DNA of 48,618 bases from the NCBI RefSeq assembly GCF_001696715.1, contig NZ_MBFM01000001.1, positions 162,073 through 210,690 on the forward strand, in the 5' to 3' direction. The notes under the pieces are model-generated. The model was not told the origin of the DNA, made no database searches, and saw only the letters and a list, made by a program, of their open reading frames with translations. This DNA is from Thauera phenolivorans. GTDB taxonomy: Bacteria; Pseudomonadota; Gammaproteobacteria; Burkholderiales; Rhodocyclaceae. This document shows, in pieces, positions 11,307 to 29,088 of this stretch (position 1 is its first letter; each line of letters starts with the position of its first letter). The translations under genes were made by a program, and so were the position numbers.

Positions 11307-11750
11307 ATGACCGCCGCCACGCGGGTGCAGTTCTACCACAACACGCCCGACCGCCTCGTGCTCGCCTGCGAGATGGTCGGCCGCGCCTACGCCAGCGGGC
11401 GCAAGGTCGCACTGCGCCTGCCCGACGCCGACAGCGCGCGCCGCCTCGATCGCCAGCTGTGGACCGCGGATCCCACCGCCTTCATCCCCCACGTCGCCGC
11501 CGACTCGCCGCTCGCCGCGGAAACGCCGGTGGTGCTCGCGGTCGCCGGCGGTGAGGCCTGGCCGCACACCGACCTGCTGTTCAATCTCGCCGACGACCTG
11601 CCACCCGGTTTCGAGCGCTTCCGCATGGTGATCGAGATCGTCGGCCAGAGCGAGGCGGAAAAGCTGCCGGCGCGCACGCGCTGGACCCACTACAAGAAGC
11701 GCGGCCTCGCCCTGCAGGCCTTCGACGCCGAGCGCAGGGTCGCCCTATGA
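11307..11750 (+). CDS. holC: DNA polymerase III chi subunit
   Basis: Chi joins psi in the clamp-loader complex and contacts SSB, linking the replicase to single-stranded DNA. The 147-residue protein has the family start VQFYHNTPDRLVLACEMVGRAY and the internal DLLFNLADDLPPGFERF. It is immediately downstream of pepA and overlaps the next gene by ATGA, so pepA-holC and the next gene form one transcription unit. Confidence 0.94.
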   Translation: MTAATRVQFYHNTPDRLVLACEMVGRAYASGRKVALRLPDADSARRLDRQLWTADPTAFIPHVAADSPLAAETPVVLAVAGGEAWPHTDLLFNLADDLPPGFERFRMVIEIVGQSEAEKLPARTRWTHYKKRGLALQAFDAERRVAL

Positions 11751-15749: not shown

Positions 15750-17183
15750 TCAGTTCCGTTCCGCCTCGCGGTCCTCGCGCAGCCGGGTCTTGAGTTCGCG
15801 CAGCCGCGCGTCGACCGCTGACAACTCGTAGAAGTCGCCATCGCCGGCCTTGCGCGCGATCTCGAGCTGCTCGATCGCCGCCGGCACGCTGCCGCGCAGC
15901 ACATAGACTTCGGCCTGGGCGCGGTGCTGGGCGGTGCGCCGGCCGAGCTCGGCATTGGCGCGCGACAGCAGCAACCACAGCCGGGCGTCACCGCCGCGCT
16001 GCGTCAACGCCTTGCGCATCCCGACCACCGCCGCGGCGGGCTTGCCGGCTTGGATCTGCGCCTCGGCGAGCGCGTACTCCAGGCTGCGATATCCCCGATG
16101 GCGCTGACGCGCGGCCTCGAGCAGCGCCAGCGCGCCGACGCCGTCCTTGCGCGCCAGCCGGATCTCGGCGGCGAGCGTATCGACCCAGGGCGAGGACGCA
16201 ACGTCGGCGCGCAGTTCGTCCACCACCGCGGCCGCCTCGTCGAAGCGCGCCGCCCGCAGCAGGGCGCGCCCGAGGCCATAGCGCGCCGCCGCGTCGTCGG
16301 GATGGCGCTCGACGCCTTCCTGCATCTGCCTGACGGCATCGGCGGCGGCCCCTGCCTGCGCACGCAACTTGGCGCGCACGTAGCCGAATTCCGGTGAATC
16401 GAGCACCTGACGGTAGGGCATCGAGGAAGCCCGATTCTCCATGTCGGCGATGCGCTCGGTGGTCAACGGGTGGGTGCGCAGGTAGGCCGGCGCGTTGTTC
16501 TCGTAAAGCCGGCTGTCGCGCTGCAGGCGCTCGAAGAAGCCGGGCATGCCGCGCACATCGAAGCCGGCCTGCTCGAGGGTTTGCAGGCCGACGCGGTCGG
16601 CCTCGCGCTCGAAGCCGCGCGTGTAGCCGAGCTGGGACTGGATCGCCCCGGCCTGGCCGGCGGCGATCGCCGCCTGGCTCACCTGCGAATTGCTGCGCGC
16701 GGCCAGCACCGCGACCAGCAACGAAGCCAGCATCACCATCGAGGTCTGACTCTGCTTGCCGAACAACTGGGCGATGTGGCGCTGGGTGACGTGGGCGATC
16801 TCGTGGCCGAGCACCGAGGCGAGCTCCGACTCGCTGCGCGCCGCGAGGATGAGCCCGCTGTGCACCCCGATGTAGCCGCCCGGCAGGGCGAACGCGTTGA
16901 GGGTGGAGTCGCGCACGACGAAGAAGTCGAACTCGCGCAGCGGATCCTCGCTCGCCGCCACCAGCCGGTGTCCGAGCCGATTGACGTATTCCTCGACCTC
17001 CGGATCGTCGAGATAGGCCGCGTCGCGCCAGCGGATCTGCTGGATGATCTGCTCGCCGATGCGGCGCTCCGCCGCCGGCGAAAGTTCGGACGCCGCGACG
17101 TCCCCCAGGTCGGGCAGGTCCAGGGCCTGGACGGGAAGGGCCAGCGCGAGGCTGAGCAGCAGGGCGAGCGGTCGGCGCATCAT
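15750..17183 (-). CDS. BepA-like periplasmic M48 metalloprotease with TPR domain
   Basis: A 477-residue secreted zinc protease resembling BepA (YfgC), which degrades or helps assemble outer-membrane beta-barrel proteins such as LptD. It has a signal peptide (residues 1-20), the HEIAH zinc motif (H127, E128, H131) with a third ligand near E194 in FEREADRVG, and tetratricopeptide-like helices from about residue 285. Two adjacent ATG codons (17183 and 17180) are both possible starts. It is divergent from moaC. Assignment to the M48/BepA group is firm; substrate is inferred. Confidence 0.9.
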   Translation of the reverse strand: MMRRPLALLLSLALALPVQALDLPDLGDVAASELSPAAERRIGEQIIQQIRWRDAAYLDDPEVEEYVNRLGHRLVAASEDPLREFDFFVVRDSTLNAFALPGGYIGVHSGLILAARSESELASVLGHEIAHVTQRHIAQLFGKQSQTSMVMLASLLVAVLAARSNSQVSQAAIAAGQAGAIQSQLGYTRGFEREADRVGLQTLEQAGFDVRGMPGFFERLQRDSRLYENNAPAYLRTHPLTTERIADMENRASSMPYRQVLDSPEFGYVRAKLRAQAGAAADAVRQMQEGVERHPDDAAARYGLGRALLRAARFDEAAAVVDELRADVASSPWVDTLAAEIRLARKDGVGALALLEAARQRHRGYRSLEYALAEAQIQAGKPAAAVVGMRKALTQRGGDARLWLLLSRANAELGRRTAQHRAQAEVYVLRGSVPAAIEQLEIARKAGDGDFYELSAVDARLRELKTRLREDREAERN

Positions 17184-17297: not shown

Positions 17298-17786
17298 ATG
17301 AGCGAAGATACCGCCTCCCGCCTGACCCACTTCGACGCCGACGGCCAGGCCCACATGGTCGACGTCGGCGCCAAGGCCGAGACCCGCCGGGTGGCGGTCG
17401 CCACCGGCCGCATCCTGATGCAGCCGGCGACCTTCGAGATGATCGCCGGCGGACATGCGAAGAAGGGCGACGTGATCGGCATCGCGCGCATCGCCGCGAT
17501 CCAGGCCTCGAAGCGAACCGGCGAGTTGATCCCGCTGTGCCACCCGATCCCGCTCACCCGGGTCGCGGCCGAGTTCGCGCTCGACGCCGCCGCCCATGCG
17601 GTCGAGTGCACCGTCACCGCGGAGACGGTCGGCCGCACCGGGGTCGAGATGGAGGCGCTCACCGCGGTCAGCACCGGGCTGCTCACCATTTACGACATGT
17701 GCAAGGCGGTCGATCGCGGCATGCGCATCGAGGGCATCCGCCTGCTCGTGAAGAAAGGCGGCAAGTCGGGGCACTGGAAGGCCTGA
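17298..17786 (+). CDS. moaC: Cyclic pyranopterin monophosphate synthase, 3' end replaced by element
   Basis: MoaC makes cyclic pyranopterin monophosphate from the MoaA product in molybdopterin synthesis, which serves both Mo and W enzymes. From the ATG at 17298 ([13 protein letters not shown]) it has 162 residues, with [11 protein letters not shown] and [11 protein letters not shown], and the [11 protein letters not shown] segment that holds the catalytic Asp and Lys. The last 27 codons lie in the attL repeat, and the final residues GHWKA are element-encoded; the displaced host end at 26892 would give GHWLAAD. The active-site residues are all retained, so the protein is probably functional. 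Confidence 0.95.
17696..17777 (+). repeat. attL, 82-bp direct repeat in moaC
   Basis: This stretch is identical base for base to 26796-26877. It encodes the end of MoaC from MCKAVDRG to GHW. Sequence to its left is host moaC; sequence to its right is element. Confidence 0.93.
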
Positions 17787-17919
17787 GCGTAACCGCTTGA
17801 ATTTGCAGGCGGTGCCCGGCTCTTTCTTGGCGTAGCGCTCGACCCTTCGGAAGCGTCCCTGAGGTTCTGCAGGGTTCGGTTATCGGTTCTGTCCATCGTT
17901 TGTCCAAGTGGGGGCTACG
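17787..17919. other. attL arm region with TGTCCAA motifs
   Basis: The 133 bases between moaC and the integrase hold TGTCCAT (17890-17896) and TGTCCAA (17901-17907). The same heptamer occurs four times at the other end of the element, so these are candidate integrase arm-binding or directionality-factor sites. No gene is seen. Confidence 0.5.
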
Positions 17920-18912
17920 ATGGCATCAATTAGGCGGCGTGGGGATCGTTGGCAGTGTCGTGTAACGCGGCACGGTTTCCCGCCAGAAACCAAGTCCTTC
18001 GCAACGAAGGCGGAAGCGGAAACATGGGCACGGTCCATCGAAGTCGAGATGGACAAGGGCAGGCACCAGAACCGCGCCTCAGTCGAGCGAACAACGCTTG
18101 CAGACATCCTGCTGCGGTACGCGGAAGAGGTCACGCCCTGTAAGAAGGGGGCGAAGGAAGAAGCCATCCGCCTGAACGCCCTACGGGCGAACAAAGTCGG
18201 CAAGTATGCCTTGGCGAACCTCAGTGCCGCAGCAGTGGCGAAGTTCCGCGACGAGCGATCGAAGACGGTCTCGGCGGGCACCGTGTTGCGGGATCTCGCC
18301 CTGCTCTCGTCCGTGCTGAATCATGCTCGCAGGGAATGGGGCTTTCCTGTCGAGAACGCCGTTCAAGCGATCCGGAAGCCACGACAGCCCCAAGGGCGGG
18401 AGCGCGTGCTATCGCACGATGAAGAAGCCCGCCTGCTGACCGCATCGGCCCCTTTAGGGCGTCGCAGTCCCTGGCTGCAGCCGATCATCATCCTTGCACT
18501 GGAAACGGCCATGCGGCGCGGCGAACTGCTTGCGCTGAGATGGGAGCATGTCTGCCTCGACAAGCGCACCGCCCTACTGCCCGACACCAAGAACGGCACG
18601 AGGCGCCTCGTGCCGCTGTCACCTCGCGCACTGGAAACCCTGAAGCACATGCCGCGCTCCATTGACGGGCGCGTGTTCCCGATCTCCGAGCCCGCCCTGC
18701 ACCTGCGGTTCAAGATGGCGTGCGACCGCGCGGGAATCGACGGGCTCCACTTCCACGACCTAAGGCACACGGCGACCACCAGACTTGCCGAGAAGCTGAC
18801 CAACTTGGCGGAGTTGTCCGCCGTAACCGGACACAAGTCGCTCCAGATGCTAAAGCGGTACTACCACCCCAACGCCGAAGCACTCGCGGAAAAGCTGGCG
18901 AAGACGGCGTGA
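17920..18912 (+). CDS. int: Tyrosine recombinase/integrase
   Basis: A 330-residue phage-type site-specific recombinase. It has an N-terminal Arm-type domain (about 1-50), a SAM-like core-binding domain (about 55-150) and the catalytic domain. Catalytic residues are R199 (in TAMRRGELLAL), K224, H279 and R282 (in HDLRHTATT), H305 (TGHKS) and the nucleophile Y314 (KRYYHP). All are present, so the enzyme should be active. The ATG at 17920 has GGGGGC upstream; an in-frame GTG at 17908 abuts the TGTCCAA site and is less likely. It lies next to attL, reading into the element. Confidence 0.95.
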   Translation: MASIRRRGDRWQCRVTRHGFPPETKSFATKAEAETWARSIEVEMDKGRHQNRASVERTTLADILLRYAEEVTPCKKGAKEEAIRLNALRANKVGKYALANLSAAAVAKFRDERSKTVSAGTVLRDLALLSSVLNHARREWGFPVENAVQAIRKPRQPQGRERVLSHDEEARLLTASAPLGRRSPWLQPIIILALETAMRRGELLALRWEHVCLDKRTALLPDTKNGTRRLVPLSPRALETLKHMPRSIDGRVFPISEPALHLRFKMACDRAGIDGLHFHDLRHTATTRLAEKLTNLAELSAVTGHKSLQMLKRYYHPNAEALAEKLAKTA

Positions 18913-18966
18913 CACAGCGCCAGCAACCCAAAACCATTACCTGAATCGAAACCCAAGGACAAAATC

Positions 18967-19359
18967 ATGACCACGATTGTTTGCGGAATCATCACTAACG
19001 ACCCGATCAACCTTGATGTGATCAAAAACGCTTATTCCAAGCTCGCTGAGGTCCCGTCTGTCTGGATCGATGTTGATGCTGACATAAAGCGCCCAGCGAT
19101 GCAGCGACAAGGGTATAACCGGGCAAAATGGTTTGACGATTTGCTGCCGCGATGCCTGCAAGGCCTGCAGGGGCGTCCCGGCGCCCTGGACCTGTTCGTG
19201 ACTGTCGAGAACGGGGCAGAAGCGGCGCAGGTGCTGGCGCTGGGCGGCGTGGTCGCCCGAGTGGGCGGGGACAACGGCGCGGGCGTGGATGGCGCCCTAG
19301 ACCTGCGCGGGATGGCGCCGAAGACTGCGGCGCGAGAGCTGGCGCGAACGGTGGGGTGA
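18967..19359 (+). CDS. Hypothetical protein of the element
   Basis: A 130-residue protein I do not recognise. AAGGA at 18955-18959 precedes the ATG by seven bases. The N-terminal half (MTTIVCGIITNDPINLDVIK and on) comes from comparatively AT-rich DNA; the C-terminal half, from about residue 58, is Gly- and Ala-rich and encoded by GC-rich DNA, which may mark a junction. There is no signal peptide or membrane segment. It sits 54 bases after the integrase and is followed by a strong terminator, so it may be co-transcribed with int; a recombination accessory role is only a guess. Confidence 0.6.
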   Translation: MTTIVCGIITNDPINLDVIKNAYSKLAEVPSVWIDVDADIKRPAMQRQGYNRAKWFDDLLPRCLQGLQGRPGALDLFVTVENGAEAAQVLALGGVVARVGGDNGAGVDGALDLRGMAPKTAARELARTVG

Positions 19360-19370
19360 TTCTCGCGCAG

Positions 19371-19411
19371 AAAAGCCAACGGCAGATCCTTGGATCTGCC
19401 GTTGGCTTTTT
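19371..19411 (+). terminator. Strong rho-independent terminator after the int unit
   Basis: AAAAGCCAACGGCAGATCC (19371-19389) pairs perfectly with 19392-19410 around a tiny loop, ending in TTTTT. The stem is 18-19 bp and flanked by A and T runs, so it could work in both directions. Confidence 0.88.
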
Positions 19412-19811
19412 GTCACCGGACAGTTGGGGCCTTGGCCGGTTTGGCGGGGACGGATCGAATATAAACAAATGGCCTCAATTCGGCAAGTTGATATAACCTT
19501 AAAGCGCTTCCTCGTACGATAAAACCGGCTTATATTCTCACGGCACGATGGGCGTTCCGCATCACGGAGTGCTCGCCCGGACACCAGCCTGAAATCACTG
19601 CCCTAGGCGGGGACGTGACCTAGGGAAATGGAGCCCCGCTGACTGGCGGAACGCCAGCGGCAAACCTTGCTCTGATTCACCGTACAGGGACGGTTGCTTT
19701 CCCACCCGCCAAACCACCTTCAAAAAAAGGGGTTTGGCGTTGTTGTTTGTGGGGCTCACCCTGGACGGTGGCCCCACTCGCCAAACCCGATAACCATAGG
19801 AGTTTGGCGAA
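19412..19811. promoter_or_regulatory. Control region with five GTTTGGCG motifs
   Basis: This 400-base gap holds no gene I can support. It contains GTTTGGCG at 19439-19446, 19732-19739 and 19802-19809, and its complement CGCCAAAC at 19707-19714 and 19779-19786. The copies form two inverted pairs (19707/19732 and 19779/19802); the second pair brackets the AGGAG ribosome site of the HTH gene. TGGGGC (19750-19755) and GCCCCA (19771-19776) form another stem, and two CCTAGG palindromes lie near 19600-19625. It looks like an operator region for the replication genes, possibly bound by the HTH protein itself. Confidence 0.5.
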
Positions 19812-20066
19812 ATGGACAGTCACATCATACAAGATGCGCCGCAGGACGGCGCACGGCAACGCGCCTGCATTTTGCAGCACCTCACCCTGTACGGACAAAT
19901 CTCAACGACCGAAGCCCGAGAGCGGTACGGGATCATGTCCCCGGCTTCCCGTGTGCTTGAACTGCGGCGTGCTGGACACCAGATCGACACGGTTCGGCTT
20001 CGTGCGCCCGATGCGAACGGGCAATTCCACAATCAGGCCAAGTACGTGATGCGGGGTGTGAAATGA
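19812..20066 (+). CDS. Small helix-turn-helix protein (HTH_39-like)
   Basis: An 84-residue basic protein with a helix-turn-helix over about residues 15-58: ACILQHLTLYGQISTTEARE then YGIMSPASRVLELRRAGH. This is the pattern of the HTH_39 family common in phages and integrative elements, used as regulators or origin-binding factors. AGGAG (19798-19802) precedes the start and is inside an inverted repeat. The stop overlaps the primase-helicase start (ATGA), so the two are coupled. A role in regulating replication is inferred. Confidence 0.75.
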   Translation: MDSHIIQDAPQDGARQRACILQHLTLYGQISTTEARERYGIMSPASRVLELRRAGHQIDTVRLRAPDANGQFHNQAKYVMRGVK

Positions 20067-22738
20067 CCACACACTTCGATAACGACATCGGCCTATGTGA
20101 TGCCGGGATCTACTCGACTGGATCGGGAATGGACGCATGGCAGGACGTTACCCCTGCTGAGTTGCGGGAAATGCTTGAGGGCACGTCCCCGACTGCGTTC
20201 CGCACGATCCTTAGCAGGACGGGCGAGGACGCTTATCAAGGTCCCTTCCACATCGATGTTGATGCAGGCGACATTGAAGAGGCCATCGAAGCAATGCGCG
20301 AGGTGCTCGATAAGCTGGAAGCGCTTGGACTGGACCTCAACGCCGTGCGCCTGTTCGCAACGGGGGGCAAGGGCTTTCATGCAGAAGTGCCGGAAGCCTG
20401 CTTCATGTCGAAGCCTGGGCCCGTCGAAGGGTTACCGCGCATCTATCGGCAAATGGCTTATGCAGAATATGTCGATTGCTGGGACCTTCGAGTCTATAGC
20501 GGCAGGCGCGGCAGGCTTTGGAGGGTGCCGAACGTAAAGCGGGAGAACGGCGCATATAAGGTGCCGGTGATCGCCAGTGAAATCAGGTCGATGACCCCTG
20601 AAACCTATGCACAACTGTGCAGCGAGCCTCGCCCCTTCCCCGCGCTGGCTGCACCTGTGCTGTGTCCTGGGCTTGCTGCTTTGTTCGTAGAGGCGCGCGA
20701 TAAGGTGGCGTCGAAGGTGAGCCGAGTTCGTAAATGGTCGGCGGCTGAGACGGAACTACGCCAGCGCTTTAGCGGCAATTGTCCGCCGTCCCTGCACGCC
20801 GTGATGAGTGGTCAGGTTCAATCCCCGGCCGGGTTCAATGAATTGGCCCTTCAAGTGTGCTTGCTTGCTCATGCCCTGGGCTGGGACGAGGACAGGCTTA
20901 TCGCTGAGTGCAAGGGCTTGATTGCTAATCACGATAGCGACGGACACCGATATAACACCCCTCGCAAGCGGGAGAACGAGTTGCGGCGGATGTTCGATTA
21001 CACAGGGGGTAACGTTGCCTATGAATTTTCGGTCGGCGGGCTTCGCTCGGTATTGCCGAAGGGTTCAAGGTGCCCGGACCTTCAAGGGCTGGAGGCTGAC
21101 AAGGACGAGGGCTCGCCCGATTACGTGGAACTGCTCGATGCGGCTGATGGAGACGTGGGCGAAATCGTTGCCGTAGCCCGCAAAGCTGTTGTTGATCCTT
21201 CTCTATCGAAGACGGAAGCCGAGGCGCTGATTAAGCGTGCTGCGAAAACGGCGGGCGTCGCTGTGAAGGTGCTGAGAACGGACCTTTATCAGCCCGAGGA
21301 CCATGATAAGCGAGCCGTTATCGATGTTCGCCGGAACGACTACAGCGCCAGCGTTGATAGCTGCATGGCTGTGTTGCCATCGGTTCCCGCGCTGCGCGTC
21401 CGTGGTGGCGAGTTGGTCGAGATGGTTCATGGTGTCGGCGGGGCGTCGGTTACCGCTGTCGCATTGCCGCGCTTGGGCTACCTTGTGTCGCAGACTGCCC
21501 GCTGGAATTATGGCGATTCGTTTGGCTCGCCTGATACGATGGTCCTGCAAGGTTGTTTGGCTGCTGGCGCGTGGCCTGGGGTTCCCGAGCTTGTCGGGTT
21601 GCTGCACCAGCCGACGATCGATGCCGATGGAAACATCATTGCCAGCGCGGGGAATCATGCCGGCATGGAAGCCTGCTTTGACCCTGATGCATTTCCCGAA
21701 TATGCGGGGACCGCGGCTGAGGCGTTGGCAGAGTTGCGGGGGCTGATACGTGAGTTCCCGTTCGCAACTGAGTTGGACGAGTCGGCGGCACTGTCGGCGA
21801 TCATCACTGCGGTTGCGCGCCCGATGCTATCGACTGCGCCCGCCTACTTGATTGCGGCACATGACTTGGGGACCGGGAAATCTTTCCTTGCTGGATTGGT
21901 CGCCTTGTTCGCGGGCGAAGATGAGACGATGCGACGGTGGGCGCAGCGAGGCGAGGAACAGGACAAGTCTTTGCTTGCTGCGCTTATGGAGGCTAAGCCG
22001 TCCTGTGTATTTGACAACCTGATGCACCATTGGCAGTCGCCGACACTTGCGGCAATTCTGACCGCACCTATTTACAGTGATCGGATATTAGGTCAGTCGG
22101 CAAGTGCAAGCGTTTCGACTCGCTGCCTTTTCATTGCGACCGGGAACAACATCAAGCCCGTAAAGGACTTGTCGCGTAGAGTGGTCACGATTGAACTTGA
22201 TGCCAAATGCGAAAACCCCTTGCTGCGCGAGTTCTCGGGTGATCCTGTTGCCGAGGTTCGCGCTAATCGGGGTCGCTGGGTAATGTGTGCACTGCGGGTC
22301 CTGCAAGGGTATTTGCAGGGTCCGGGGGTGTCGGGGCTGCAGCCCGTCGCCAGCTTCGGCGAGTGGTCGCGGGTTGTCCGGGGCGCCCTCGTCGCTGCAG
22401 GCCTTCCCGATCCTGGTCGAGCGCTGGTGCGCAACGTCGAGGGCGACGATGACCGCGACTTGCTCGGGCATGTGCTGCAAGTGTGGTGGGAGTGCTTCGG
22501 GGACGAGCCGTTGACCTTGCGCGACGTGCTGCAGGCGACGGCGGCGGCGGCGGCGTCCTCGCCCTTAGGCGAGCTGCGGGCACTGCTGATCGAGGTCGCG
22601 GGCGAGCGTGGCGAGATCAGCGCCCAGAAGCTCGGGAACTGGGTCGGCTCCCGCGCGGGCCGAGTGGTCGAGGGTCTGCGGTTCGTCGGCTTACCTCGCA
22701 CGAGAACCGGCGTCCCGTGGTCCGTGGCGAAGGTCTGA
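20063..22738 (+). CDS. Fused archaeo-eukaryotic-type primase and AAA+ helicase
   Basis: An 891-residue replication protein. The N-terminal part looks like a PrimPol-type primase: FHIDVD with D65 and D67 as metal ligands, then TGGKGFHAEVP (H106 motif), then DLRVYSGRRGRLWRVPN (about 141-157). The C-terminal part is an AAA+ ATPase: Walker A GTGKS (603-607), Walker B-like VFDN (649-652), sensor IATGNN (691-696) and candidate arginine finger R705/R706. Such fusions initiate and unwind at origins of satellites and plasmids. The last 150 or so codons are much richer in GC than the rest, suggesting a recombined end. An iteron region follows directly. Confidence 0.85.
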   Translation: MTTHFDNDIGLCDAGIYSTGSGMDAWQDVTPAELREMLEGTSPTAFRTILSRTGEDAYQGPFHIDVDAGDIEEAIEAMREVLDKLEALGLDLNAVRLFATGGKGFHAEVPEACFMSKPGPVEGLPRIYRQMAYAEYVDCWDLRVYSGRRGRLWRVPNVKRENGAYKVPVIASEIRSMTPETYAQLCSEPRPFPALAAPVLCPGLAALFVEARDKVASKVSRVRKWSAAETELRQRFSGNCPPSLHAVMSGQVQSPAGFNELALQVCLLAHALGWDEDRLIAECKGLIANHDSDGHRYNTPRKRENELRRMFDYTGGNVAYEFSVGGLRSVLPKGSRCPDLQGLEADKDEGSPDYVELLDAADGDVGEIVAVARKAVVDPSLSKTEAEALIKRAAKTAGVAVKVLRTDLYQPEDHDKRAVIDVRRNDYSASVDSCMAVLPSVPALRVRGGELVEMVHGVGGASVTAVALPRLGYLVSQTARWNYGDSFGSPDTMVLQGCLAAGAWPGVPELVGLLHQPTIDADGNIIASAGNHAGMEACFDPDAFPEYAGTAAEALAELRGLIREFPFATELDESAALSAIITAVARPMLSTAPAYLIAAHDLGTGKSFLAGLVALFAGEDETMRRWAQRGEEQDKSLLAALMEAKPSCVFDNLMHHWQSPTLAAILTAPIYSDRILGQSASASVSTRCLFIATGNNIKPVKDLSRRVVTIELDAKCENPLLREFSGDPVAEVRANRGRWVMCALRVLQGYLQGPGVSGLQPVASFGEWSRVVRGALVAAGLPDPGRALVRNVEGDDDRDLLGHVLQVWWECFGDEPLTLRDVLQATAAAAASSPLGELRALLIEVAGERGEISAQKLGNWVGSRAGRVVEGLRFVGLPRTRTGVPWSVAKV

Positions 22739-23142
22739 CCCCTGCAAGTGTGATCCCTCGCGTGATCCTGAATCGAGGGATCACGCAGGATCACGCTTAG
22801 GATCACAGGCTAGAAGCCGCGCCGTTACTGGGTTTCAGGGCTTTCTGTGATCCTGTGATCCTACTTGGTTATGCTTGCGTATAAGAAACTGCATATAGGG
22901 ATATAGGCCCACTTGCAGACATATGCGTTCTACGGCGGCGACGCGTACATTCCGGGATCACAGGATCACACTTGCAGGTCCCGTGCCCTTGAAACCCGCG
23001 CCGTTACTGGGTTTCAGCGTTCCCGCTGGGCGTGATCCCGGGATCACGGAGGGATCACACAGGGATCACAGGGTGCCGCCGCCGCTGTTACTGCGTTACA
23101 ATGTGACGCAGTAACGGAACTTGAAGGGGGCGGGGGGGGGCA
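22739..23142. other. Candidate replication origin with GGATCAC iterons
   Basis: This 404-base gap holds no gene but thirteen copies of GGATCAC or its complement between 22750 and 23069, plus one inside the next gene (23196-23202). Many are spaced 8 or 10-12 bases apart. There are also an 11-bp inverted repeat (22750-22760 and 22774-22784), a 22-bp direct repeat (22817-22838 and 22996-23017) and an AT-rich stretch at about 22862-22912. Iterons plus an AT-rich unwinding-like segment next to a primase-helicase is the usual layout of a plasmid or satellite origin; function is inferred. Confidence 0.6.
23087..23115. promoter_or_regulatory. Palindromic operator candidate
   Basis: GTTACTGCGT (23087-23096) and ACGCAGTAAC (23106-23115) form a perfect 10-bp inverted repeat with a 9-base centre, 28 bases before the GTG of the next gene. 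The GTTACTG half also appears in the two 22-bp direct repeats upstream, so one protein could bind all four places. Confidence 0.45.
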
Positions 23143-23400
23143 GTGGCGAAGACAGCGGCAGAACGACAGAAGGCCTACCGGGAGCGACGGGGGCAGGATC
23201 ACAGGCTGAACCTCTACATCGCCGCCGACGCTGGCGCCGCCCTCGCCCGACTCTGCAAGCTCTGCCGCCTCCCGCAGCGGGAGATGCTCGAGCGGCTGAT
23301 CCTGACCGCGGAGGCCGACCACCTGCAGACCCTGACGCCCGACAGCCCGGAATGGCTCGAATATCACGGGCAGATTGAAGCCTGGGAGCCAGAACCATGA
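23143..23400 (+). CDS. Small basic protein, possible DNA-binding (RHH-like)
   Basis: An 85-residue protein starting at GTG 23143 behind a long G-rich ribosome site. The N-terminus MAKTAAERQKAYRERRG is basic, then RLNLYIAADAGAALARLCKL and a helix with LPQREMLERLI resemble a ribbon-helix-helix strand and helices seen in small plasmid or phage regulators. It could be the origin or copy-control protein because it follows the iterons and a palindrome, but I cannot prove this. Its stop overlaps the next start by ATGA. Confidence 0.65.
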   Translation: MAKTAAERQKAYRERRGQDHRLNLYIAADAGAALARLCKLCRLPQREMLERLILTAEADHLQTLTPDSPEWLEYHGQIEAWEPEP

Positions 23401-23807
23401 ACAACCTTCACACCTTGCAGGGGCGCCGCAACGGGGGCGCCAGCGTCGACCGTGGCGCCGTCCTCGATCACCGGCAAGCCAAAGCCCGAGCGCTTGCCGT
23501 CCTGGGCGGCGGTGACCCTCTGATCGCTTCCCGTGATGCCTTCGACGCCCTTGCCGCGCGGAATCGTGAGCTTCTGGACGGGGGCGGGGACGCCATCCGC
23601 GAAGCCCTCGCCGATCAGGTCGCCATCCTGGAAGCCGTGGTCACAGGGTTCAGCTACCAAGCCGCGGTGGCCCGCCACAAGGACGACGCCCGACAACTTG
23701 CCGGCGTGGCGATCCGGGCAAGCTCGACGCTTGTGCAGGTGCTGGGGGCGCTTCACCGCATGAGCGAGGACCGGCGAAATGGAAACGCCATCGACGCCGC
23801 TCCGTAA
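23397..23807 (+). CDS. Hypothetical protein of the element
   Basis: A 136-residue, mostly helical, Ala- and Arg-rich soluble protein without a recognised domain. It overlaps the preceding gene by four bases and the following gene by 29, which supports real translation. There is no membrane segment or cysteine. Its central part (ALAARNRELLDGGGDAIREA and on, about 49-90) could be a helical bundle. Function unknown. Confidence 0.55.
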   Translation: MNNLHTLQGRRNGGASVDRGAVLDHRQAKARALAVLGGGDPLIASRDAFDALAARNRELLDGGGDAIREALADQVAILEAVVTGFSYQAAVARHKDDARQLAGVAIRASSTLVQVLGALHRMSEDRRNGNAIDAAP

Positions 23808-24018
23808 GGTCTCGTATCGAAGCCTGGAGGCTCGCCGAGAATGGAAGGCTCAAGCCGCTATGGCTGTGAGGCGTCGAGAGCTTGCAGAGCGATACCCCGA
23901 CATCAACCCTCAGGCGTGGTCGAACCTGGGGCCTGAGGGTTACGGGTCGATGTCGGGGGCGGGAGCACGGGCTTTGCGTGAGTGGCTGAAGAGTGTTGGC
24001 GACCTATTTGGAGCGTGA
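23779..24018 (+). CDS. Hypothetical small protein of the element
   Basis: A 79-residue basic protein starting at ATG 23779, with GAGGA about ten bases upstream, inside the end of the previous gene. Residues 10-40 are rich in Arg and Ala (SLEARREWKAQAAMAVRRRE). No domain recognised. It is the last gene on this strand before the convergent cargo gene. A packaging or replication accessory role is possible in a satellite but not shown. Confidence 0.5.
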   Translation: METPSTPLRKVSYRSLEARREWKAQAAMAVRRRELAERYPDINPQAWSNLGPEGYGSMSGAGARALREWLKSVGDLFGA

Positions 24019-24055
24019 CACCACAGGCAACAGGCCTTGAGAGTGTGGATCGGTA

Positions 24056-24834
24056 CTAGCTGGTAACCTTGGACTTATAATATTCGGCCACTTTCCTGTA
24101 CTGAGGGTATATTGAACCCCCGCTACCCTCGCCACTAATAGCGAAATCAGTGCATTCCTTAGCAATCCTTGACGCTAAAGAATCAAAGAAATCCAATATG
24201 TCATTTGGAATTTCGTACCAGTTGTCGAATTTTGAGTGAAGATAATAAGAGCCTGCCGAAAGTGCAACAGAATTAAGTTGATTATTGTCAACATAACCTC
24301 TGCTCGTGGTGTCGCGCTCCTTAAAGCTCTTTATAAATAGCCTCATGCACTTAATTCCATTTTCGTGGCCAGATTGACCGGAGTGCATAAAAAGCCTACC
24401 CATTTCCCAATAGCAATATAATGAGCCCTTTCGCGCACCTTCTTTGTAATATTCAAGCGCTTTTTCCTTATTTTCAGGAACCCCTTCATCCCCGAAGGCA
24501 TACAATCCCCCCAACCTTGCGTATGCTTCCAAGCACCCAAGCCTTGCGGCCTGCTTGTACAGTTCGATCGCCTGACGGCAATCCTGGATGAAGTCACCAA
24601 GGCCGTAGTGGTGGCACGTCGCTTCTTCAAAAATGGCTGTCCAAGGTTCTCTTGCTGGAAGACTCAACGCGTCCAACTCATCCCCAACTGGCGAGTCCGA
24701 GAGCAGGTCGTCATCTTCCGCTTCTTCCTCTGCGCCATTCCAGTCCCCATCAATGGCCCCTGGAGCCAGTGCAATGGCACGAATCACCTCGTTGGCAGGG
24801 GCGCTGAAAAACTCGCGGTTATCGGCAACCCTAA
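24056..24834 (-). pseudogene. C-terminal part of IS-split T5orf172-Sel1 gene
   Basis: This carries the larger part of a cargo gene: after the junction it reads through NREFFSAPANEVIRAIA, an acidic linker (EEEAEDDD), and then Sel1-type repeats such as AIELYKQAARLGCLEAYARL and KALEYYKEGARKGSLYCYWE, with a tail to VTS. The DNA over 24056-24600 is strikingly AT-rich beside its surroundings. It is separated from its N-terminal part by the IS at 24835-26222. Joining the parts with one copy of the CTAA duplication gives an uninterrupted frame of 331 codons. Confidence 0.85.
24831..24834. repeat. CTAA target duplication, left of IS
   Basis: The bases CTAA here match CTAA at 26223-26226 directly outside the other IS end, a 4-bp duplication of the YTAR type used by IS5-group elements. 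Confidence 0.8.
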
Positions 24835-26222
24835 CAGGGTGTTGATTTAATACGTTTCCCAGTAAGTGCAAGGGTTTTAGATCTGCTATAATGCTTGTTG
24901 CATTAACGGTCTGACAATTCCGATGCGCGGCACCGATCATAAACAGAACGCCTTGTTCAGCTACGTGAATATCGAGGAGCGAATTCCTCAGGATCATCCA
25001 TTGCGGCGGGTGAAGGTGCTGGCCGATCTGGTTCTGCGTGCGATGTCGCCCACTTTCGATTCGCTCTATGCCGAAGGCGGCCGTCCCTCGATTGCCCCGG
25101 AGCGGCTGCTGCGCGCGTCGTTGCTGCAATGCCTGTTTTCGATTCGCTCGGAGCGCGTACTGGTCGAGCATATCGACTTCAACATGATGTATCGCTGGTT
25201 CGTGGGCCTGACGCTGGACGAGGCGGTGTGGGATCACTCGACGTTCTCGGCCAATCGCGAGCGCTTGCTCAAGGAAAGCGTGATGCGCGAGTTCTTCGGT
25301 GGCGTGGTGGCGATTGCCGAGTGGGCCGATCTGGTCTCGGACGAGCACTTCAGCGTCGACGGCTCGCTGCTGCGGGCGTGGGCTTCGCACAAGAGCCTGG
25401 CCGCACGCGACGGTTCGGACGAGCCCCCGGGGCCGGATCAGGGACGCAACCCCGAGGTGGACTTCCGGGGGCAGAAACGTTCGAACGCGACGCACGTCTC
25501 GCGCACCGACCCGGACGCCTTGCTCGCCAGCAAGGGCGGCGCAGGCGCCTACCTGAGCTTCACAACCCATGCGCTGGCGGAGAACCGCAACGGGCTGATC
25601 GTCGATGTGCACACCACCCAGGCTACCGGCACTGCCGAGCGCGAGGCCGCGCTGGTGATGGTCAAGCGCACCGTGAAGCCGGCCGACGCGACGCATCAGC
25701 CGACGTTGGCGGCCGACCGGGGTTACGACACGGCCGAGTTCATCGCTGCGCTCACGCCGCTGGGCGTGCTGGCGCACGTTGCCGCCAAGACCAAGGGCAG
25801 CGCCGTGCCCGTGGCGGTCAAGGCTACCGAAGGCTATGCGGTGAGCCTGCGTCGTCGCAAGATGATCGAAGAGGCGTTTGGCTGGGCCAAGGACATCGGC
25901 ACGCTGCGCCGCCTGATGGCGCGCGGGCTGGACACGATTCGCGCGCATGCGCTGCTCAATTTCGCCGCCTACAACCTGACGCGGCTGGGTAATTTGCTGG
26001 CGCCGTAACCCGATGGCGCTATCGCGCCACTTGCGTTGCGGCATTTGACGGTTGAATACGTTGTCTTTGCAGCGACGGGAGCGCTGCTCGATTGCGGTTG
26101 CACAATCGGCTGGGAAAACGGCTGGAATCGTCATCAGGGCGGCTCGGGTCGGCTCTTTTCTGCGTCGATTTTTTTCCAGGCGGCTGGGAACCGAAGGTGA
26201 AGCGAGAATTTTCAACACCCTG
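24835..26222 (+). mobile_element. IS5-family insertion sequence, 1,388 bp
   Basis: The element is bounded by perfect 11-bp inverted repeats, CAGGGTGTTGA (24835-24845) and TCAACACCCTG (26212-26222), with CTAA duplicated on both sides. It encodes one complete transposase and has a 214-base right tail after it (26009-26222) in which I see no gene. It is inserted in the minus-strand T5orf172-Sel1 gene. Intact ends, clean duplication and an intact transposase suggest recent insertion. Confidence 0.92.
24923..26008 (+). CDS. IS5-family DDE transposase
   Basis: A 361-residue transposase. The N-terminal region is the DUF772-type domain (LFSYVNIEERIPQDHPLRRV and on). The catalytic residues fit a DDE set: Asp in FSVDGSLLRAW, Asp in LAADRGYDTAEF and Glu in MIEEAFGWAKD. 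It ends with the usual RAHALLNFAAYNLTRL helix. It is full length with no frameshift, so the IS is probably active. A close IS1182-type assignment is possible; the 4-bp CTAA duplication favours IS5. Confidence 0.93.
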   Translation: MRGTDHKQNALFSYVNIEERIPQDHPLRRVKVLADLVLRAMSPTFDSLYAEGGRPSIAPERLLRASLLQCLFSIRSERVLVEHIDFNMMYRWFVGLTLDEAVWDHSTFSANRERLLKESVMREFFGGVVAIAEWADLVSDEHFSVDGSLLRAWASHKSLAARDGSDEPPGPDQGRNPEVDFRGQKRSNATHVSRTDPDALLASKGGAGAYLSFTTHALAENRNGLIVDVHTTQATGTAEREAALVMVKRTVKPADATHQPTLAADRGYDTAEFIAALTPLGVLAHVAAKTKGSAVPVAVKATEGYAVSLRRRKMIEEAFGWAKDIGTLRRLMARGLDTIRAHALLNFAAYNLTRLGNLLAP

Positions 26223-26440
26223 CTAAAGCCTTTGCTTGCAAGAAGGGTGTGAACAAATGTCTCCGCTTCCGTGCAGTCTTCGAACAACTGTTCGTAGACA
26301 ACGATGAACGGGGTCGGCAGCCCTGTTGCGGCTGAAAGCTCTGCCGCACGCTCTGCAGGGCTACGGGTAGTTTTCCCTACCTTGACCATCCCTTGCATTG
26401 CGCTGTTCGCTAGTACATACAGAAAACCTACATCACGCAT
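26223..26440 (-). pseudogene. N-terminal part of IS-split T5orf172-Sel1 gene
   Basis: This piece starts at ATG 26440 (MRDVGFLYVLANSAM), with GGGGG upstream on the minus strand; a GTG at 26473 is an alternative. It encodes a T5orf172/GIY-YIG-like domain: GFLYVLANS, VKVGKTTRSPAERAAELS and TEAETFVHTLLASKG. This domain is known from phage and defence-associated proteins. Past the CTAA the frame enters the IS, so the natural product is lost. Rejoined to the downstream piece, the sequence reads HTLLASKGFRVADNREFF, a natural-looking junction. Confidence 0.85.
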
Positions 26441-26795
26441 AGCCAACCCCCAAGTGTCATAGTCACCTGACACATCCTAGCTGAAGGAAGCCTGCCGGAA
26501 GAGACTAGATCGAAAAGTTTCAAAAACCCGCCCGCATCTCGAAGAGGGGTGTCTGCACGACCATTAAATATGCCGGAGAAAAAGCTACCCCGTCTTAGCC
26601 TGAGCCTATCGATAGGGTATTAGTGATGGCTGCACACGCCCCGCGTTCTCGGTAGGATTATGCATAGTGCGATGTCGCACCAACGGTGCTTGGACAAGTA
26701 GTGATGTCCAAGCTGTGTCCAAGTGAAGTTGGACAGAACACATAGTCCGAACCTTCGTCCCATTTCTTTTCAAGGGGTTAGCGCTGGGTAAACTG
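26441..26795. other. Right end region of the element with TTGGACA/TGTCCAA motifs
   Basis: About 355 bases without a supported gene. Four copies of one heptamer occur in alternating orientation: TTGGACA (26690-26696), TGTCCAA (26705-26711), TGTCCAA (26716-26722) and TTGGACA (26729-26735). The same heptamer lies beside attL. They sit 60-105 bases from the att repeat, the position expected for integrase arm sites. No convincing promoter toward tag is seen. Confidence 0.55.
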
Positions 26796-26877
26796 CATGT
26801 GCAAGGCGGTCGATCGCGGCATGCGCATCGAGGGCATCCGCCTGCTCGTGAAGAAAGGCGGCAAGTCGGGGCACTGG
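26796..26877 (+). repeat. attR, 82-bp direct repeat
   Basis: Identical to 17696-17777. The bases left of it are element sequence and those right of it are the original moaC end. Confidence 0.93.
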
Positions 26878-26892
26878 CTGGCGGCCGACTGA
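26797..26892 (+). pseudogene. Displaced 3' end of host moaC
   Basis: The reading frame from ATG 26797 gives 31 codons, MCKAVDRG through GHWLAAD then stop. This is the original chromosomal end of moaC, left behind when the element inserted. It lacks the rest of the enzyme and is not expected to be functional. tag follows 37 bases later, as it must have followed moaC before insertion. Confidence 0.88.
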
Positions 26893-26929: not shown

Positions 26930-27529
26930 ATGAGCGACGCAGCCGGAACGAAGGATAGCGCGGCCTGCGTGCGCTGCGCCTGGGCGGGCGAGGACCCGCT
27001 CTACATCGCCTACCACGACGAGGAATGGGGCGTGCCGCAGCGCGACGAGCGCGCGCTGTTCGAGTTGCTCCTGCTCGAGGGCGCGCAGGCCGGATTGTCG
27101 TGGATCACCGTGCTGCGCAAGCGCGCCCGCTATCGCGAACTCTTCGACGGCTTCGAGCCGGAGCGGATCGCGATGTGGGACGCCGGACGCCATGCAGCCC
27201 TGCTCGCCGAGCCGGGCATCATCCGCAACCGGGCCAAGATCGAGGCGGCGAGCGCCAACGCGCGCGCCTGGCTCGACCTGCGCGCGGCGGGGATCTCGCC
27301 GGTGGATTTCCTGTGGGGATTCGTCGGCGGGTCGCCGCGCCACAACCGCTTCCGCCACCCCGCCGAGGTGCCCGCCCTGACGCCCGAGTCGCAGGCGATG
27401 AGCAAGGCGCTGAAGGCGCGCGGGTTCAAGTTCGTCGGCCCGACGATCTGCTACGCCTTCATGCAGGCGAGCGGGATGGTCAACGATCACACGCTCGGCT
27501 GCTTCCGCCACCGCGAGCTGGCGGGCTGA
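26930..27529 (+). CDS. tag: DNA-3-methyladenine glycosylase I
   Basis: Tag removes 3-methyladenine from alkylated DNA in base-excision repair. The 199-residue protein has the zinc site expected of the family: C16 and H29 (spaced 13 as in the E. coli enzyme), and H187 and C191 near the C-terminus. The DPLYIAYHDEEWGVP and GLSWITVLRKR segments carry the base pocket. GGAGGAG precedes the ATG. Before integration of the element it lay directly after moaC, so its transcription may have been uncoupled from moaC. Confidence 0.95.
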   Translation: MSDAAGTKDSAACVRCAWAGEDPLYIAYHDEEWGVPQRDERALFELLLLEGAQAGLSWITVLRKRARYRELFDGFEPERIAMWDAGRHAALLAEPGIIRNRAKIEAASANARAWLDLRAAGISPVDFLWGFVGGSPRHNRFRHPAEVPALTPESQAMSKALKARGFKFVGPTICYAFMQASGMVNDHTLGCFRHRELAG

Positions 27530-27547: not shown

Positions 27548-28366
27548 TCAGCGCGGCGTCGGGTAGAACAGCTGCTCGCCACCCAGCTTGTAGGAGGCGA
27601 TCGCCTCACGGCCCGCGTCCGAGGTGATCCAGTCGATGAACTGCTCCGCCGCCGCCTTCTTCACATGCGGATGCTTGTCGGGATTGACCAGGATCACGCC
27701 GTAGGGATTGAACAGCTTGGGGTCGCCCTCGTACACGATCGCCAGGCTCTGGCGGTTCTTGAAGTTCGCCCAGGTGCCGCGGTCGGACAGGGTGTAGGCA
27801 TCGACGCCGGCCGCCATGTTGAGGGTCGGCCCCATGCCGGCGCCCGCCTCCTTGTACCAGTCCTGGCCCACCGGCTCGACCCCGGCCGCCTTCCAGAAGC
27901 GCAGCTCGGCGGCGTGGGTGCCGCTCTTGTCGGCGCGCGAGATGAAGGTCGCCGCCTTGCCGGCGATGCGGCCGAAGGCGTCGGGCGTGTCGCTCGCACC
28001 CTTCACCGCGGCCGGGTCGGCGCCCGGGCCGATGACCACGAAGTCGTTGTACATGACGTCGCGACGATAGCGCCCATAGCCCTCGGCGACGAACGCGTCC
28101 TCCGCCACCCGGTCGTGCACCAGCAGCGCATCGGCGTCGCCGCGGCGGCCGACGTCGAGCGCCTGGCCGGTACCGAGCGCGACCACCTTCACCGTGATCC
28201 CCGTCGCCTTCTCGAACACCGGCAGGATGTGGCCGAACAGGCCCGACTGCTCGGTCGAGGTGGTGGAGGCGAGGACGATGGATTCGGCAGCGCCGGCCGC
28301 TGGCGCGGCGGCGACCAGCATCGCCGCGGTGAACACTCGGAGTCGATTCAGAAGCGCATGTGCCAT
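27548..28366 (-). CDS. tupA: Tungstate ABC transporter substrate-binding protein
   Basis: A 272-residue periplasmic protein with a signal peptide (about residues 1-26). The oxyanion-binding signature TTST (35-38) in STTSTEQSGLF is that of TupA, which binds tungstate far more tightly than molybdate. Start is ATG 28366 behind AGGGGGA; the open frame upstream is inside tupC. It overlaps the tupC stop by 19 bases. The neighbouring AOR operon encodes a tungsten enzyme, which supports tungstate over molybdate as the substrate. Confidence 0.9.
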   Translation of the reverse strand: MAHALLNRLRVFTAAMLVAAAPAAGAAESIVLASTTSTEQSGLFGHILPVFEKATGITVKVVALGTGQALDVGRRGDADALLVHDRVAEDAFVAEGYGRYRRDVMYNDFVVIGPGADPAAVKGASDTPDAFGRIAGKAATFISRADKSGTHAAELRFWKAAGVEPVGQDWYKEAGAGMGPTLNMAAGVDAYTLSDRGTWANFKNRQSLAIVYEGDPKLFNPYGVILVNPDKHPHVKKAAAEQFIDWITSDAGREAIASYKLGGEQLFYPTPR

Positions 28367-29088
28367 GGCAGTTCCCCCTGGATGAAGAGCCGCGCCTCTT
28401 CGGACTGCGGCCGTGAAAAGAAGCGTTGCACCGGCGTATGCTCGCACACCCGGCCGGCCGCCATGAAGATAACATCATCGCCGAGGCGGGTGGCCTGGCC
28501 GAGGTTGTGGGTCACCATGACGATGCGGGTGCCGTCGGTACGGATCTCGCGCACGATGCGCTCGACCTCGGCGGTCGCCGAGGGGTCGAGGCTCGCCGTC
28601 GGCTCGTCGAGCAGCAGCAGGCGCGGCCCGGTGAGCCAGGCGCGCGCGAGCGCGAGGCGCTGCTGCTCGCCGCCGGAGAGCTGGCGCGCGCTGTCTCCGG
28701 CGCGATCGGCGAGGCCGATGCGCTCGAGCATCGCCATCGCCCGTCGCCGCCGCTCGGGCGCCGGCACGCCGAGCGGCCGCAGGCCGAGCGCCACGTTGTC
28801 GAGCACCGAGCTGCGCAGCATCATCGGATGCTGGAACAGCATCATCACGCCGGCCCGCGGTCGCCCGCCCTCACCCGCCGGCCCCCACTCGATGCGACCC
28901 GCACTCGGTTCGATCAGACCGCAGATCGCGCGCAGCAGCATGGTCTTGCCCGAGCCATTGGCGCCCAGCACGAGGGTGATGCCCTCGATGCCGAGTTCGA
29001 GCTCGAGCCCAGCGAGCACCGCCCGGCCATTGGGGCGGTAGGACAGGCCGCGGATGCGCAGCGGCAGGATGGCGTCGTCGATGTGCAT
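28348..29088 (-). CDS. tupC: Tungstate ABC transporter ATP-binding protein
   Basis: A 246-residue ABC ATPase with Walker A GANGSGKT (42-49), signature LSGGE (137-141), Walker B in LLLLDEPT (157-164), and an H-loop in VTHN. It powers import through the TupB permease. It starts three bases after the tupB stop and overlaps tupA by 19 bases, so tupBCA is one operon. Confidence 0.92.
   Translation of the reverse strand: MHIDDAILPLRIRGLSYRPNGRAVLAGLELELGIEGITLVLGANGSGKTMLLRAICGLIEPSAGRIEWGPAGEGGRPRAGVMMLFQHPMMLRSSVLDNVALGLRPLGVPAPERRRRAMAMLERIGLADRAGDSARQLSGGEQQRLALARAWLTGPRLLLLDEPTASLDPSATAEVERIVREIRTDGTRIVMVTHNLGQATRLGDDVIFMAAGRVCEHTPVQRFFSRPQSEEARLFIQGELPWHMRF

Follow-up and report, generated by a model that had tools for sequence, protein, structure and literature searches.

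A 9.1-kb unit of the Thauera phenolivorans genome is an integrated element that occupies the 3′ end of moaC and provides the gene with a new end. The element carries a tyrosine integrase, a winged-helix regulator, a primase-helicase and an array of iterons, and it is probably a replicon that integrates site-specifically and behaves like a phage-inducible chromosomal island (PICI). It lies within a stretch of 48,618 nucleotides (contig NZ_MBFM01000001.1, positions 162,073–210,690, forward strand), referred to here as the window, in whose coordinates the following features are given; genomes and loci used for comparison are denoted by G and L numbers, respectively, G000 being the genome of the window itself.

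15,750–17,183, minus strand: left flank, M48-type metalloprotease-like gene, named by eye (neighbour conservation in the genus)
17,298–17,786, plus strand: moaC, complete, its 3′ end presumably element-supplied (TIGR00581/NF006870, above cutoff)
17,696–17,777, plus strand: left att repeat, 82 bp (repeat comparison)
17,908–18,912, plus strand: tyrosine integrase, 334 aa, alternative start ATG at 17,920 (PF00589, E 1.3e-26; phrog_1 integrase, E 2.2e-64)
18,967–19,359, plus strand: ORF, 130 aa, without a family match (G535 counterpart 72% identical)
19,371–19,410, no strand: perfect 19-bp inverted repeat, terminator-like (repeat search)
19,812–20,066, plus strand: winged-helix regulator, HTH_39 (PF14090, E 1.4e-14)
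20,063–22,738, plus strand: primase-helicase, 891 aa (phrog_16345 primase, E 3.4e-29; aligned motifs)
22,750–23,069, no strand: iteron array, 13 GGATCAC sites in two sets, putative origin (word counts, layout comparison)
23,143–23,400, plus strand: ORF, 85 aa, weakly similar to regulators of the RepB type (counterparts in G511 and G535; PF10723 at E 0.0025, under the cutoff)
23,397–23,807, plus strand: core ORF, 136 aa, predicted helical (matches in G511, G129, G535, G507 and G412)
23,779–24,018, plus strand: core ORF, 79 aa (matches in G129, G535, G507 and G412)
24,056–24,834, minus strand: Sel1-repeat part of split cargo gene (PF08238, E 2e-13, query 24,056–24,850)
24,835–26,222, plus strand: IS5-family insertion, transposase at 24,923–26,008 (NF033581, 217 bits, cutoff 140; ends by eye)
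26,223–26,473, minus strand: T5orf172 (GIY-YIG-like) part of split cargo gene (PF10544, E 7.3e-10, query 26,200–26,473)
26,796–26,877, plus strand: right att repeat, 82 bp (repeat comparison)
26,796–26,892, plus strand: displaced original moaC end (sequence; second moaC match in G000)
26,930–27,529, plus strand: right flank, tag, DNA-3-methyladenine glycosylase I (TIGR00624, 252.9 bits, cutoff 232.5)
27,548–28,447, minus strand: right flank, substrate-binding-protein-like gene, named by eye (81–84% to the gene after unoccupied moaC)

Borders of the element and its unoccupied sites

The original prediction, made from the sequence of the window, had placed two perfect 82-bp direct repeats around a unit of 9,100 bp, and both the coordinates (17,696–17,777 and 26,796–26,877, start-to-start distance 9,100 bp) and the identity of the copies were reproduced; the next longest direct repeat listed between 15 and 30 kb is only 33 nt long at 73% identity. 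Each copy contains the moaC codons for 27 residues. The gene interrupted is indeed protein-coding, as had been proposed, rather than a tRNA gene: the product of 17,298–17,786 is recognised as a MoaC equivalog by TIGR00581 (199.7 bits, cutoff 141.5), and ARAGORN finds no tRNA gene in the whole window. The complete moaC terminates in ..GHWKA*, and the ending that lies 3′ of the right repeat copy reads ..GHWLAAD* (read by eye). In steps of 1 kb, the G+C fraction is 0.48–0.67 at 18.0–27.0 kb, against 0.65–0.73 at 10–17.5 kb and 0.68–0.71 at 27–32 kb, and thus stays below that of the flanks for most of the element. Family searches recovered the integrase, regulator (the winged-helix gene), primase-helicase and cargo that had been read from the sequence; two features had been missed, namely the IS5-family insertion, which makes up 1,388 bp of the unit, and the iteron array behind the primase-helicase gene.

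A moaC match is found in 27 of 29 genomes of the genus, and the M48-type metalloprotease-like gene adjoins it in 26 of these 27 loci, the remaining one being cut by a contig end. Relatives of the integrase adjoin moaC in five of the 27 (G000, G493, G511, G512 and G532); none is seen beside moaC in 21, where up to 1.5 kb was inspected, and one further locus is cut by a contig end. In three relatives (G524, G527 and G522), moaC is directly followed by the substrate-binding-protein-like gene (81–84%), so that empty sites exist and the two flanks are contiguous where the element is lacking. The tag gene lies between moaC and the substrate-binding-protein-like gene in the window and does not do so in these three genomes; the right border is therefore not base-for-base equal to their unoccupied sites.

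That the 82-bp repeat might have arisen from moaC by chance or by tandem duplication, independently of the integrase, has a negligible probability. The same arrangement recurs in six other complete elements, and a second match to the moaC end was found in exactly those five genomes of the genus that carry a moaC-adjacent integrase and in no others. Nothing was found in favour of such a duplication, which is rejected on the repeat data and on this genus-wide distribution.

The repeats of the complete moaC elements overlap from about CATGTGCAAGGC onward. In G512, the right repeat carries a variant shared with the unoccupied relatives G441 and G516, and the left repeat carries another; the crossover would thus have fallen within the first 44 bp of the G512 repeat, with the moaC tail supplied by the element. 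The repeat copies of the window and those of Thauera aminoaromatica are identical within each genome, yet the two genomes differ in this stretch, which suggests either long-standing movement of the element inside a single lineage or homogenisation of the copies.

Integrases sharing the moaC site

In the window, the integrase is situated directly 3′ of moaC and the moaC end is repeated, and relatives of this integrase adjoin moaC in other genomes as well. Relatives were present in 72 of 300 genomes of the order, with the insertion site inspected at the 30 loci returned. A scan of genome contigs gave 37 loci, 12 of them beside moaC or its end (L033–L040, L060, L062, L063 and L067), and genome searches contributed further moaC-adjacent integrases from G131, G252, G511, G512 and G532; G493 and L033 (T. 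aminoaromatica S2) have identical moaC and integrase matches. The group is represented in many Betaproteobacteria and is related to integrases beside tRNA genes and coaD. A close relative of the window integrase was not confirmed in the viral-contig scan, and the 550 phage records matched were all below 60% identity (10 of the 550 among the matches listed).

An integrase tree of 62 rows was built, from which repeat copies of one locus, integrases shorter than 280 aa and L062, whose moaC-adjacent integrase is in two pieces, were excluded; G532, where the contig ends 27 aa into the moaC-adjacent integrase, is likewise outside it. Sixteen moaC rows, three coaD rows (gene named by eye) and one tRNA-Pro row form a set of 20 with support of 96/97, the inner branch that excludes the tRNA-Pro row being weaker (94/63). 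The remaining rows comprise 13 integrases beside tRNA-Val, five beside tRNA-Arg, one beside tRNA-Met and 23 without an assigned target. A single moaC clade, set apart from the coaD-site integrases, is neither recovered by the tree nor rejected (AU p 0.512). Just upstream of position 10001 of L051, L052 and L053, integrases near the moaC group lie downstream of a coaD-like gene (by eye) in Burkholderia, Paraburkholderia and Caballeronia. Sequence comparison supports the view that these related integrases (16 of the 62 rows) use moaC as their attB.

Seven moaC elements are complete and measure 9,100, 11,176, 10,437, 19,517, 9,069, 9,464 and 7,900 bp. Their att repeats span 82–133 bp (89–133 bp and in some cases imperfect in the six elements other than that of the window), the two copies being identical in three and differing by a few mismatches in four.

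The replication core and its putative origin

The core of the window element consists of the winged-helix gene, the primase-helicase gene, the iteron array and two or three small genes. Alignments of the primase-helicase display D-x-D, GGxGFH and Walker A/B motifs, the first two of which we take to mark the archaeo-eukaryotic primase type. No family in Pfam, NCBIfam or the PDB scores meaningfully against the protein; of two PDB searches, one returned nothing and the other listed only matches near the Walker A segment, with E values of 0.16 or higher. Likewise, the 136-aa protein gains no meaningful assignment from Pfam, PHROG, NCBIfam or PADLOC, the best family-library listings for it or its relatives (E 0.016 to 0.22) being too weak for use; it has no PDB relative (three listings, E 0.6–1.2), and its single-sequence structure model is of low confidence (pLDDT 62.7). 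Its family is present in five of 199 genomes of the taxonomic family; one of the five is that of the window, and two give weak matches (E 7.8e-6 and 9.1e-4). A class-wide search found it in one of 369 genomes, again the window's own. Scans of viral contigs with the primase-helicase and the 136-aa family confirmed no relative.

Six members share this core. The moaC element of G511 matches the winged-helix, primase-helicase, 85-aa and 136-aa genes of the window; its primase-helicase gene is parted by about 2.4 kb (L147, 5537–7961). The DNA of G535 is 91–92% identical to the window over the primase-helicase and following genes, while its winged-helix protein is 43% and its integrase 38–42% identical. 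The site of the G535 element is guaA, a name given by eye, and 81 of the 88 positions of its repeat are identical; no integrase adjoins the moaC of that genome, and the element is spread over two contigs with a break inside the primase-helicase gene, its continuity being presumed. The integrase of G129 comes after tRNA-Pro, and the tRNA end is repeated over 67 bp behind the 79-aa gene on a second contig; a separate frame encodes the N-terminal primase, which belongs to another type (PF09250). The element of G507 is contained in a single contig: 50-bp repeats at tRNA-Met enclose 8,646 bp, and the integrase, which carries a PF13356 arm domain, is of a different type. In G412, one contig carries the integrase with a piece of the primase-helicase, and another the 136-aa and 79-aa genes together with a tRNA-Pro gene; a tRNA-Pro-like fragment was seen by eye beside the integrase, and this element is probably also situated at tRNA-Pro.

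A family of satellites or integrative plasmids that use moaC as attB had been envisaged in the original prediction. Related integrases do share the site; a single family tied to moaC was not recovered. Only the window and G511 match the core among the seven complete moaC elements, five being without a core match (tblastn, E 1e-3 or 1e-4), and the same core is found elsewhere at guaA, tRNA-Pro and tRNA-Met. One element family bound to moaC is accordingly rejected. Two Thauera genomes carry near-identical bodies, one at moaC and the other at guaA, with integrases that differ; this points to separate inheritance of integrase and replicon, and the integrase-att module and the replication core thus seem to be exchanged separately between elements. 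The ORFs of the other moaC elements were listed, and four elements were inspected by eye. The moaC element of T. aminoaromatica S2 (L033, 9390–20400) has an integrase 92% identical to that of the window and no match to the window core, and by eye it carries a different primase/helicase pair and an ankyrin-like gene. In the element of L060 (8367–13711), a serine-recombinase-like gene, a GHKL-ATPase-like ORF and two genes recalling DUF3037/HipA-like pairs were noted, also by eye.

The word GGATCAC occurs 13 times in the 404 bp 3′ of the primase-helicase gene; in 200 shuffles, no 7-mer occurred more than five times. Among 239 segments of 404 bp along the sequence, the top two overlap the array (9 copies of one 7-mer each, the array being cut by the steps); a segment at 11,717 reaches 8 copies of one 7-mer, so that moderate counts also occur outside the array. 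All six core members have an iteron array whose count was reached in none of 200 shuffles. The word is shared by the window and G535 and is otherwise AGTCACC (G129), CTGAACA (G511), ACTCACA (G507) or ACTCGCA (G412). Layouts were compared with free shift and a tolerance of 3 bp against 500 random layouts. The sites that match the window layout number 13 of 13 in G535, 9 of 9 in G507, 9 of 11 in G129, 7 of 8 in G412 and 4 of 11 in G511, matches equalled by 0, 0, 0, 1 and 264 of the 500 random layouts, respectively; that of G535 accompanies nearly the same sequence. Spacing and strand order thus agree with the window in three of the four members with a different word (G129, G507 and G412), the exception being G511, for which no comparison with the other members stands out. 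Pairs among the other members behave similarly, with 1 (G507–G129), 2 (G412–G507) and 5 (G412–G129) of 500 random layouts as good.

The shared layout may in part be explained by conserved surrounding sequence. A GGGTTTCAG box lies at 22,830 and 23,009 of the window, 179 bp apart; it recurs at the same two places in G535 and at one in G507, is also present in the region of G511, and does not occur in G129 or G412. In the origin region of the window, the 50 bp of highest A+T content (22,856–22,905, a modest 0.64) are located between the inner iteron pairs, as they are in G535 (0.64), and behind the second iteron pair in G129, G507 and G412. PICI origins, as described in the available excerpts of PMC6092414, lie 3′ of the initiator gene and comprise an A+T-rich region with a set of iterons on either side, and this layout is found in the window and in G535.

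Mode of spread and relation to known elements

The element appears to combine an integrase and a specific attachment site with its own replication functions, and its excision, replication and route of spread may be pictured as follows. The tyrosine integrase would insert the circular form of the element into the 3′ end of moaC by recombination, presumably near the left end of the 82-bp repeat; since attP carries the moaC tail, the gene would be rebuilt with the end that the element supplies. Upon induction the element would excise, and its layout suggests that the primase-helicase would start replication at the iteron array just downstream. Spread would probably be by helper-phage packaging, and comparison of the elements suggests that the integrase-att module and the core are traded separately along the way.

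As the original prediction had stated, the ORFs scanned against family libraries include no recognised capsid, large terminase or mating gene, and the same holds for portal and tail genes (hence no complete prophage), for terS, interference, capsid-remodelling and other terminase or packaging genes, and for relaxase or transfer genes. The regulator found is HTH_39, and no AlpA family hit was obtained among the ORFs scanned. The anatomy is largely that of a PICI; because AlpA was not found and packaging can only be surmised, the element is called PICI-like and is not filed as a PICI. The unlike iteron spacing in G511 and the position of the A+T-richest 50 bp in G129, G507 and G412 also speak against this reading. 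In a search of the own genome with 17,787–24,830, which leaves out the cargo end, only one 40-bp stretch at 85% was found besides the element itself and its own palindrome, so that no helper is pointed to.

An integrative plasmid-like element, which would replicate from its iterons after excision and be moved via its own oriT by a conjugative helper, or by DNA uptake, and not by phages, is a rather unlikely reading that nonetheless has to be weighed. Iterons are equally typical of plasmids. No packaging gene was recognised, and distant relatives of the helicase part are encoded on small Psychrobacter plasmids of 17.7 kb (31%) and 6.5 kb (28%). SGI1, in the literature excerpts available, is an integrated island that is moved by helper plasmids. 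Against this, the ORFs scanned include no relaxase or transfer gene, and an array 3′ of the primase-helicase gene that is followed by small genes and defence-like cargo resembles PICIs as excerpted in PMC6092414.

The cargo gene bears on another alternative, an element that has decayed and become immobile and is retained since moaC now needs its tail. The gene is split by the IS5-family insertion, which is flanked by a 4-bp CTAA target duplication (24,831–24,834 and 26,223–26,226, by eye), and it is presumably inactive in the window. G535 carries an uninterrupted counterpart (T5orf172 part 95% and Sel1 part 43% identical) that matches the PADLOC candidate defence gene PDC-S57 over its first part (E 9.8e-24), and the cargo accordingly resembles a candidate anti-phage gene at the sequence level. 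Apart from the split gene, little favours decay, which is considered improbable: both the integrase and the primase-helicase retain open, conserved reading frames, the two att copies do not differ, and close relatives reside at other sites.

Under the preferred PICI-like reading, Gram-negative PICIs are the nearest comparison. Like such PICIs, of which EcCICFT073 is an example, the element has its integrase at the left end, a primase-initiator (here fused with a helicase) that is closely followed by an A+T-richer segment between iteron sets, core genes in one direction, no structural genes and a possible phage-resistance accessory gene; unlike them, as far as the excerpts extend, it has HTH_39 instead of AlpA, no recognised terS or capsid gene, small core ORFs without a family, moaC as target, and an induction and packaging that are putative (PMC6092414). 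Vibrionaceae PICMIs are similarly small, with an integrase, a regulator and a primase and without terS, sid or ppi homologs, but lie next to fis and carry AlpA, a comparison made with their excerpted description (PMC10803314).

Iteron plasmids and primase-polymerase plasmids have an initiator with an iteron array, as does the element; unlike them, the element is integrated and has its own integrase, and the plasmid relatives of its primase-helicase are below 37% identity with only a part matched. SGI1-related islands are moved by conjugative plasmids and have a gene content other than that of this element. Their site-specific integration at a protein-coding gene, trmE or dusA, is similar to that of the element (PMC8409611). 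Among the matches listed from the open-licence literature, the excerpts contain no report of moaC as an integration site or attB: moaC is listed as a border gene of a Cupriavidus island (PMC7019866) and mentioned in cofactor synthesis (PMC5406005), and it is absent from the excerpted main text of PMC12884075, though it may well be listed in the tables of that article.

It is possible, if somewhat doubtful, that these elements constitute a separate satellite family in Thauera and related Betaproteobacteria, with a core of HTH_39, primase-helicase, iteron array and 136-aa and 79-aa proteins, which keeps its origin geometry while the iteron word changes with each lineage and which moves among moaC, guaA, tRNA-Pro and tRNA-Met by exchange of integrase modules, the moaC integrases being aimed at the MCKAVDRG codons. 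This conserved segment of MoaC is one that we take to have an active-site role. If the proposal is true, its codons would be a protein-coding counterpart of the conserved tRNA targets, and changing iteron words within one satellite family would give many mutually compatible replicons. The moaC integrases represent a ready set for a conserved protein-coding target, and the combination of a shared iteron layout with changing words makes the specificity between initiator and origin directly testable on natural pairs.
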